42,481 nt of DNA, from the NCBI GenBank assembly GCA_903821365.1, contig CAIJKY010000001.1, positions 1-42,481 on the forward strand, in the 5' to 3' direction. This DNA is from an uncultured bacterium. GTDB lineage: Bacteria; Patescibacteriota; Saccharimonadia; Saccharimonadales; Saccharimonadaceae. Of the stretch, positions 19,040-20,478 are shown in pieces; position 1 is the stretch's first letter, and each line of letters starts with the position of its first letter. The notes under the pieces are model-generated. The model was given only the letters and a program-made list of their open reading frames with translations, was not told where the DNA came from and did not search any database. The position numbers and the translations under genes were made by a program.

Positions 19040-19067
19040 TTGCAAAAAACGGCAATAGTGATATGAT
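19040..19067 (+). promoter_or_regulatory. Promoter of the 19119-19697 gene
   Basis: TTGCAA (19040-19045), 16-bp spacer, TATGAT (19062-19067). The leader starts with hairpin CGCCGCAG/CTGCGGCG (19077-19097). Confidence 0.6.
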
Positions 19068-19118
19068 AGCCACACCCGCCGCAGAACTACTGCGGCGCTG
19101 ATCGTATCAGGGGTGAGA

Positions 19119-19697
19119 ATGACCAAGTTGTTGGATGTTTCCCTCTTGCCGTTCGAGCAGAAGTATGCGCTCAATGGCCAGACGCTGGGCCTGTCTCGGG
19201 TGATCGAGGCGGTGCAGTCTGCTGTCTGGCGGCTCAGTATCACCGAGCCACCATTGGTGGAGAAGAACATGAGCTTCGGCTTCGCCATGGGCGACCCGAA
19301 GTTCACCAAGCGGCAGCGCGCCAACGCTGCGGTTTGGGATGTCCCCGAGAATCTGGCTTGGCTGGTCGGCGGCTGGGGCGCTCAGCGCGATCGCTACGTC
19401 GCCAACGCCGTGCGTAAGCTGCGACCGGCCTGCCGGACGGGTAAGTCGACGCTCGACTTAAGCTTGAACGACCGAGAGTTGTTCTTGGACGAGGTTGAGT
19501 CCGAGTGCGAGCCTGGCCAGTACCCCTGGGGCGACTACCCTTGGGGTGGCGCAACTTGGGTTGACTTCTGGGGCAACCCCGTTCCGGTGGCAGTCGGCTG
19601 TCTGAGCGAAGAGGAAGGCCCGGCGCTGGCTGCTCTCATCGGCTCGCTGATCGCTTCCGAGCTGCACAAGGCGCGCAAGCACCTGATCCCAGGGTAG
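19119..19697 (+). CDS. GC-rich hypothetical protein with Trp/Gly repeats
   Basis: 192 aa, unrecognised, no clear membrane helix. An Arg-rich middle is followed by an aromatic Gly-rich stretch (YPWGDYPWGGATWVDFWG) and a hydrophobic C-terminal helix (ALAALIGSLIASELHKA). The start is ATG 19119 behind AGGGGTGAG; GTG 19113 is an alternative. The 5' leader hairpin, SD and 14-bp terminator mark it as class 2. Confidence 0.6.
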   Translation: MTKLLDVSLLPFEQKYALNGQTLGLSRVIEAVQSAVWRLSITEPPLVEKNMSFGFAMGDPKFTKRQRANAAVWDVPENLAWLVGGWGAQRDRYVANAVRKLRPACRTGKSTLDLSLNDRELFLDEVESECEPGQYPWGDYPWGGATWVDFWGNPVPVAVGCLSEEEGPALAALIGSLIASELHKARKHLIPG

Positions 19698-19715: not shown

Positions 19716-19775
19716 GCCGTCACCGGGCAAAGTGACGGCAACTCTGCCCGGCTCCATGTATGGGGCTGGGCAGAG
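19716..19775 (+). terminator. Double hairpin / possible pseudoknot terminator
   Basis: Hairpin 1 is GCCGTCAC/GTGACGGC with loop CGGGCAAA. Hairpin 2 is a 14-bp stem starting CTCTGCCCGG. The loop CGGGCA is complementary to TGCCCG (19745-19750) in hairpin 2, allowing a kissing or pseudoknot alternative. Confidence 0.6.
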
Positions 19776-19796: not shown

Positions 19797-19849
19797 CTGA
19801 CTCCGCAGGTGTGTGCCTGCGCTGATGAGCTGGAAACGGCGAAAGTCAG
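19797..19849 (+). ncRNA. Type III hammerhead ribozyme in the 5' leader of the 19873-20412 gene
   Basis: All catalytic parts of a hammerhead are present in order. Stem III strand CTGAC (19797-19801), cleavage triplet CUC with scission expected after C19803, stem I CGCAGG/CCTGCG (19804-19809 with 19816-19821) around loop TGTGTG. The core CTGATGA (19822-19828), stem II GCTG-GAAA-CGGC (19829-19840), the core GAAA (19841-19844), then GTCAG (19845-19849) closes stem III. A19844 pairs with T19802 as required. The open end is stem III, hence type III. It ends 12 nt before the SD GAGGAG. Confidence 0.85.
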
Positions 19850-19872
19850 AGTGCTCAACAGAGGAGTATGCC

Positions 19873-20412
19873 ATGACAACGTACACCTACAATGGGGTTG
19901 CCGTCCGAATCTTTCACGATTCGGACGTTGCGACTGACATGCGCACGCATGGGCGATACCATGAGCTCGTGCAGCAGGTCATCGACGAAGTCGAACCATG
20001 GGAGGGCAGCAAGGGTCACAGAAAGACCATTCGATTCCAGGGACTGGATATTCAGCCCGATGTGATACGTGTTCAGCCTGGTACGCAGTTGCTATGGGGA
20101 GTGCATATTGCTCACCGAGCCAATAATCCTGGGCTGTCGCCATTCACTCATCTGTCTGCGCATCCATCTGAAGTCGGCTACATTACGGTGCAGCTGGCAG
20201 GTCCATCCGACCGACCGTATTTGGCGCGTGCTCACGGGGGCGTGTACGTGTCCCCACTTCCCTGGATGGCGCGAAAGGCCAATGTAGAGCAAAGTTGCCG
20301 ATACTGGCGGACGCATGCCTATCGTTGCAAGCCTGGCGACTCTGGAGAGCCGAGTAACATGCAGCCGAATACATTAACTATGGAGCCGCCTGACTGGTTC
20401 ATCGTGCCGTGA
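19873..20412 (+). CDS. GC-rich hypothetical protein with hammerhead-processed leader
   Basis: 179 aa, unrecognised. A beta-rich soluble protein (TTYTYNGVAVRIFHDS, TIRFQGLDIQPDVIRVQPG, GYITVQLAG) with many His and Pro, no membrane helix. The start is ATG 19873 with GAGGAG 6 nt upstream; the longer frame from 19813 begins inside the hammerhead ribozyme. Self-cleavage would leave an mRNA that starts at 19804 with two stable hairpins and a short leader. It has its own GC-rich terminator. Confidence 0.65.
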   Translation: MTTYTYNGVAVRIFHDSDVATDMRTHGRYHELVQQVIDEVEPWEGSKGHRKTIRFQGLDIQPDVIRVQPGTQLLWGVHIAHRANNPGLSPFTHLSAHPSEVGYITVQLAGPSDRPYLARAHGGVYVSPLPWMARKANVEQSCRYWRTHAYRCKPGDSGEPSNMQPNTLTMEPPDWFIVP

Positions 20413-20447
20413 TGCACACACCCGCCAAACCGTCGCCAGCCGACGGC

Positions 20448-20478
20448 GCCCCGACCGAGCATAGATCTCGGTCGGGGC
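20448..20478 (+). terminator. Terminator of the 19873-20412 gene
   Basis: GCCCCGACCGAG/CTCGGTCGGGGC, a perfect 12-bp stem. A smaller hairpin CGTCG/CGACG precedes it. Confidence 0.75.

Follow-up and report, generated by a model that had tools for sequence, protein, structure and literature searches.

A complete type III hammerhead ribozyme lies on the forward strand of the window, the 42,481-nucleotide stretch of DNA analysed here in full, and it probably belongs, as a conserved element, to the 5′ leader of the orphan gene that starts at 19873, cutting its own RNA after position 19803 once it has been made. The host, for which an earlier note had suggested a Patescibacteria-like genome, does belong to this group: it is a member of the Saccharibacteria with a tiny genome in which eight such hammerheads were found. 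The assignment to a leader, also proposed in the earlier note, is upheld by the comparison of homologous loci, since the ribozyme goes with the gene downstream of it, ahead of homologs of which it recurs.

By its structure as read from the sequence, the motif qualifies as a genuine type III hammerhead, and every element previously named was recovered where it had been placed (Table 1). The conserved core (C3UGANGA9, G12AAA15.1, U16.1 and H17) is perfect, and of the three helices stem III forms the open end, stems I and II being closed by loops. Cleavage is predicted between 19803 and 19804. A structural finder requiring the core CTGANGA, GAAA, UH and three stems returned this one motif in the whole window. 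An order-1 Markov simulation of 36.5 Mb gave five matches when the finder was set most loosely, but no match had stems of equal length; together with the flank-shuffle test and the score of a held-out model, both described below, it excludes a chance match as the origin of the motif. The main caution on the predicted activity comes from nearest-neighbour folding, whose optimum is an inactive pairing of the core CUGAU with GUCAG (-22.4 versus -19.2 kcal/mol for the native fold), an advantage of 3.2 kcal/mol computed with energies that ignore tertiary contacts.

Table 1. Features of the window around the hammerhead (positions in the window).
Feature	Position	Strand	Remarks
Sigma-70-like promoter, TTGCAA-16-TATGAT	19040..19067	+	TG before the -10 element; ahead of the upstream gene
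Upstream orphan gene	19113..19697	+	start GTG 19113 or ATG 19119
3′ hairpin 1, GCCGTCAC/GTGACGGC	19716..19739	+	
3′ hairpin 2, CTCTGCCCGGCTCCA/TGGGGCTGGGCAGAG	19742..19775	+	about 15 bp, without U-tract
Type III hammerhead ribozyme	19797..19849	+	sequence reading, structural finder, held-out covariance model
Stem III, CTGAC/GTCAG	19797-19801 / 19845-19849	+	sequence
U16.1; H17 = C	19802; 19803	+	sequence; cleavage triplet CUC
Stem I, CGCAGG/CCTGCG	19804-19809 / 19816-19821 (19804..19821)	+	hexaloop TGTGTG (class consensus UGYGUR)
Core CTGATGA	19822-19828	+	sequence
Stem II, GCTG/CGGC	19829-19840	+	GAAA loop; sequence
Core GAAA	19841-19844	+	sequence; core 19822..19844 flanks stem II
Shine-Dalgarno AGAGGAG	19860..19866	+	
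Downstream gene, 179-aa orphan family of Saccharibacteria	19873..20412	+	start ATG 19873
Double hairpin after the downstream gene	20430..20478	+	read by eye

The Rfam model RF00008, on which the earlier note had proposed to let the identification stand or fall, does not call the ribozyme. Its match spans model positions 8/9-47 and scores 19-20.7 bits, short of the gathering cut of 48.5 bits, which is a curation threshold and no structural or defining feature of hammerheads. With a covariance model built from 36 other cellular hammerheads (R2), from which the window copy and its leader relatives were left out to avoid circularity, the same sequence scores 62.4 bits (E 2.5e-17) with all 55 positions matched, and one leader relative (L320) exceeds the Rfam cut itself with 49.6 bits. 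These two results answer the objection raised by the Rfam score and rule out the reading that, for want of an Rfam call, the motif is not a hammerhead; judged by the scores, RF00008 under-scores the subfamily. The window copy shares with that model the core, the three-way junction, the open stem III and the NUH cleavage site, and differs from it in lying under the Rfam cut, in its CUC triplet and in its place in an mRNA leader on the chromosome of a Patescibacterium. Its short loops I and II are presumably like those of sTRSV-like type III ribozymes.

The same class of ribozyme is widespread among related genomes. At a loose E-value RF00008 matched in 74 of 200 relatives, three of them above the cut; a covariance model from 60 sequences (R1) found matches across the phylum in 45 of 380 genomes at E ≤ 1e-3, and R2 at E ≤ 1e-4 did so in 73 of the 394 sampled genomes of the window's family, covering 28 of 61 genera. 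Reading the loci of the relatives yielded 70 distinct complete type III hammerheads, and the reversed sequence, used as a control for such complete motifs, contained none. In this class loop I reads UGYGUR and loop II mostly NAAA, with compensating variation in stems I and III. Loop I begins with an invariant U (176 of 176 uniform copies) and the NAAA of loop II is strongly conserved; the conservation of both loops is as would be expected for the tertiary contact suggested by the earlier note. The covariation score of the class is 0.875, against 0.20 when shuffled, and is sharp against slid controls. Other genomes contain 131 exact matches to the core, of which 96 combine a stem I of at least 5 bp with a stem III of at least 4 bp, a combination seen in 5 of 2520 controls with shuffled flanks.

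With a core pattern of 22 fixed letters, which leaves stems I and III free, at least 118 stretches were matched in a search of 84,980 prokaryote species. Among the matches listed, about 88 titles by our own count name Patescibacteria or CPR lineages, about 27 say merely 'bacterium', and three name other groups (Phycisphaerales, Polynucleobacter and Smithella); the pattern is tuned on Saccharibacteria, and other clades may escape it. The three outlying matches, L191 (a Polynucleobacter MAG), L176 (a Phycisphaerales MAG) and L272 (Smithella), could reflect binning contamination, phage DNA or real occurrences.

The gene that follows the hammerhead encodes a protein of 179 aa without a match in Pfam, PHROGs or PDB sequences. 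Its AlphaFold model is poor (pLDDT 59), making a fold search from it meaningless, and short-peptide searches in collections of genome contigs and viral contigs found nothing. The ribosome-binding site and start codon indicated in the earlier note are in place, the latter 23 nt after the hammerhead. Homologs of the protein gave matches in 15 of 295 genomes of the family, with more distant ones in the order. Eleven close homologs were compared, one of them (G014) in part only. Six carry a leader hammerhead (the window, G051, G556, G135, G593 and G610), 7-26 nt ahead of the start codon in the homologs; the five copies outside the window score 42-68 bits with R1 and 30-49.6 bits with Rfam, and in G135 the first pair of stem II is broken. 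They are the conserved copies in related genomes that had been called for. The other five (G009, G014, G157, G168 and G001, the last of the same genus as the window) are without hammerhead, so the leader ribozyme is dispensable. In the protein tree, the carriers fall into four or more deep lineages, and the chance that four of eight independent lineages would carry a leader hammerhead is below 1e-6 at a generous background rate. On this tree, the deep branches of which are weak, the trait needs three changes, which would fit one gain followed by losses or several gains.

On the other side of the ribozyme, the upstream gene matches nothing in Pfam or PHROG, and none of its four homologous loci (L335-L338; G023, G001 twice and G110) has a hammerhead. 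As six homologs of the downstream gene carry one, the comparison ties the window hammerhead, at the level of sequence, to the downstream gene and not to the upstream one. The earlier note had also placed a terminator of the upstream gene before the ribozyme, and this part has to be abandoned: the two hairpins are strong and have no U-tract, the search upstream of the hammerhead gave zero terminator-like sites, and an intrinsic terminator is thereby ruled out. The same layout, a short hairpin followed by one of about 12-15 bp without U-tract, recurs in the double hairpin after the downstream gene. In the leader of the upstream gene itself (19079-19110), a hairpin CGCCGCAG/CTGCGGCG is directly followed by CTGAT and resembles stem I with the beginning of a hammerhead core, the rest being absent.

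In each of the five other leader copies, a predicted sigma-70-like promoter lies immediately ahead of the ribozyme, with scores of 9.2-13.8 and a probability of 0.002-0.015 each at random places; that of G610 reads TTGATT-17-TATAAT. The predicted transcription start in these relatives thus falls within or next to stem III. The window copy has no abutting promoter (score 0.4, no better than random places), and the only strong promoter upstream of it in this stretch is the one that precedes gene 19113. Of 162 cellular copies, only three showed a strong promoter abutting the ribozyme, all of the 179-aa gene family, a count that leaves out two more carriers too near a contig end.

From this arrangement, the leader hammerhead probably remakes the beginning of the downstream mRNA. 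Cleavage after 19803 would be rapid and constitutive, taking place as soon as RNA polymerase has made the ribozyme, and the downstream mRNA would then start with a 5′-OH, its first base already paired in stem I and no base left unpaired, so that this stem becomes a 5′-terminal hairpin. In the five relatives, where transcription is predicted to start at stem III, the cut would remove only about 5-10 nt and the triphosphate, and its main effect would be a 5′ end altered in chemistry and structure. In the window, gene 19873 is preceded by a further gene with its hairpins; provided that both genes are co-transcribed, the cut would divide their common transcript into an upstream mRNA, ending in a cyclic phosphate 28 nt beyond the strong hairpin, and a downstream mRNA with the ribozyme at its start. 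The role of a leader-trimming insulator advanced in the earlier note is plausible.

Such a cut may affect the life or translation of the mRNA, and the host genome encodes RNase J and PNPase. In Bacillus subtilis, self-cleavage of glmS leaves a 5′-OH product that RNase J1 breaks down (PMC3328962, PMC11780869), and for this reason cleavage could destabilise the message instead of protecting it; a paired 5′ end may in turn protect it. RtcB was not detected in the genome of the window or in 20 relatives, which disfavours the formation of circular RNA or religation. A hammerhead is, though, also able to ligate on its own. As a tentative proposal that we put forward with limited confidence, a hammerhead at +1 might act as a natural 5′-end converter, turning the triphosphate start of a bacterial mRNA into a hairpin-closed 5′-OH and thereby setting how long the message lives in a reduced bacterium that has RNase J; taken with the 3′-UTR copies considered below, ribozymes would then stand at both ends of the mRNAs of Saccharibacteria orphan genes.

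These other copies are the ground for a different reading, in which hairpin and hammerhead act together as a processing signal for the mRNA of gene 19113, leaving it with a defined 3′ end that carries a cyclic phosphate and is protected by the hairpin; the downstream gene would then be a bystander. Most cellular copies indeed appear from their surroundings to be 3′-UTR elements. Where both neighbours were called (n = 162), 147 have a same-strand gene upstream, at a median distance of 94 nt, and 113 one downstream, fractions that are approximate as the genes come from our own simple caller, which makes errors (for a locus present twice, one and the same site received two different calls). The upstream genes are small (median 143 aa), and those of the 3′-UTR copies that were scanned gave no Pfam match. 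Cellular hammerheads are often preceded directly by a strong hairpin that has no U-tract, and are followed in many cases by a convergent gene or by a new promoter; the 70 nt ahead of them fold at -21.7 kcal/mol, against -15.2 kcal/mol for control 3′ regions (p 7e-15). The window has the identical layout. The 3′-end reading fails, however, the homolog test described above, which favours the downstream gene, and the five leader copies with an abutting promoter have no need of an upstream gene. We consider a 3′-end function for the window copy unlikely and retain it as a rival to the leader element.

Two further readings set aside either the function or the constancy of the cut. The class is common between phage genes and could hitch-hike into genomes as a neutral relic of phage or mobile DNA: 86 IMG/VR contigs (L087-L172) carry the same core between co-directional phage genes, often several times per contig and some 20-30 nt from either neighbour; the distance to the preceding gene is mostly about 32 nt, and half of them lie 10-35 nt (often about 20 nt) before the next. 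Neutrality is nonetheless improbable for the window copy: the core is perfect, deep lineages show compensatory changes, and a position abutting a promoter recurs within a single gene family, all of which speaks for selection. Also improbable is a regulated switch, where cleavage or the CUGAU/GUCAG pairing would answer a ligand, a protein or the gene product and control decay through RNase J in the manner of glmS. The slightly greater nearest-neighbour stability of the alternative fold, the presence of RNase J and the glmS precedent (PMC3328962) are in its favour; yet no conserved aptamer-like extension accompanies the ribozyme, Hammerhead_3 is the only Rfam match in the leaders, which offer no ligand-binding domain, no sequence space for an aptamer and nothing else large enough, and the short fixed loops UGYGUR and NAAA fit constitutive fast hammerheads.

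A constitutive leader ribozyme of this kind has partial precedents. The glmS leader likewise places a self-cleaving ribozyme in a bacterial 5′ UTR, with a 5′-OH product that meets RNase J, but the fold in the window is unrelated and has no ligand domain, and the cut in its relatives is only about 5-10 nt from the predicted RNA start. Hammerheads of prophages and bacteria were described by Perreault et al. in 2011 as flanking single genes or short blocks and were proposed to cut long transcripts; one, in haloviruses HF1/HF2, lies 13 nt before a start codon, and a different one just before ardA (PMC3088659). A window cut separating two genes is close to their prophage-transcript proposal, from which the present case differs in being chromosomal across Saccharibacteria and linked with a single gene family and, in the relatives, with the predicted transcription start site. 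The hammerheads and twisters described beside genes of Mu-like phages (reviewed in PMC10085705) are another parallel, sharing the clusters of self-cleaving ribozymes near small genes; no phage context was seen around the window copy.

Known bacterial hammerheads are mostly phage-borne; here the placement itself, at a predicted transcription start, with one gene family and in deep lineages, suggests a function, and the 3′-UTR set presents hammerheads as a common mRNA-end element in a large phylum. In the open-access literature, subscription papers and preprints lying outside this scope, we found no report of a 'hammerhead ribozyme' in Saccharibacteria or Patescibacteria and none joining the hammerhead with the Candidate Phyla Radiation. 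As far as that literature shows, two findings are new: hammerheads are widespread in Saccharibacteria and further Patescibacteria, and a leader copy goes with one gene family and with a predicted transcription start.

Several copies outside the 179-aa family are arranged in series. In Candidatus Parcubacteria S40-23 (L186, JANLIU010000041.1, 2474-6528), eight complete hammerheads surround a gene for a 592-aa helicase-like protein, and an unnamed motif about 85 nt long recurs in the noncoding spacers; it contains three hairpins (GGTCGG..CCGAC, CTTAAGT..ATTTAAG and AGTGCTTTCGAAAGAGAGTGCT) and is followed by a hairpin and a hammerhead. Hammerhead_3 was the sole Rfam match here, and the locus is possibly an array of ribozyme-cut small RNAs. 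The genome of the window itself holds a tandem array (L027, G000:C13, 5947-8392) of four units, each of an orphan gene, a hairpin and a hammerhead, about 600 nt long; the genes encode 135-149 aa, at least some of the proteins are related, and a TATAAT-like promoter of the next gene follows three of the four ribozymes. Another genome of Saccharibacteria (G566; C2:139084-141003 and C4:309052-324775) has nine hammerheads; several of them follow one another on a single strand at intervals of about 1 kb, in the manner of a gene-cassette array.
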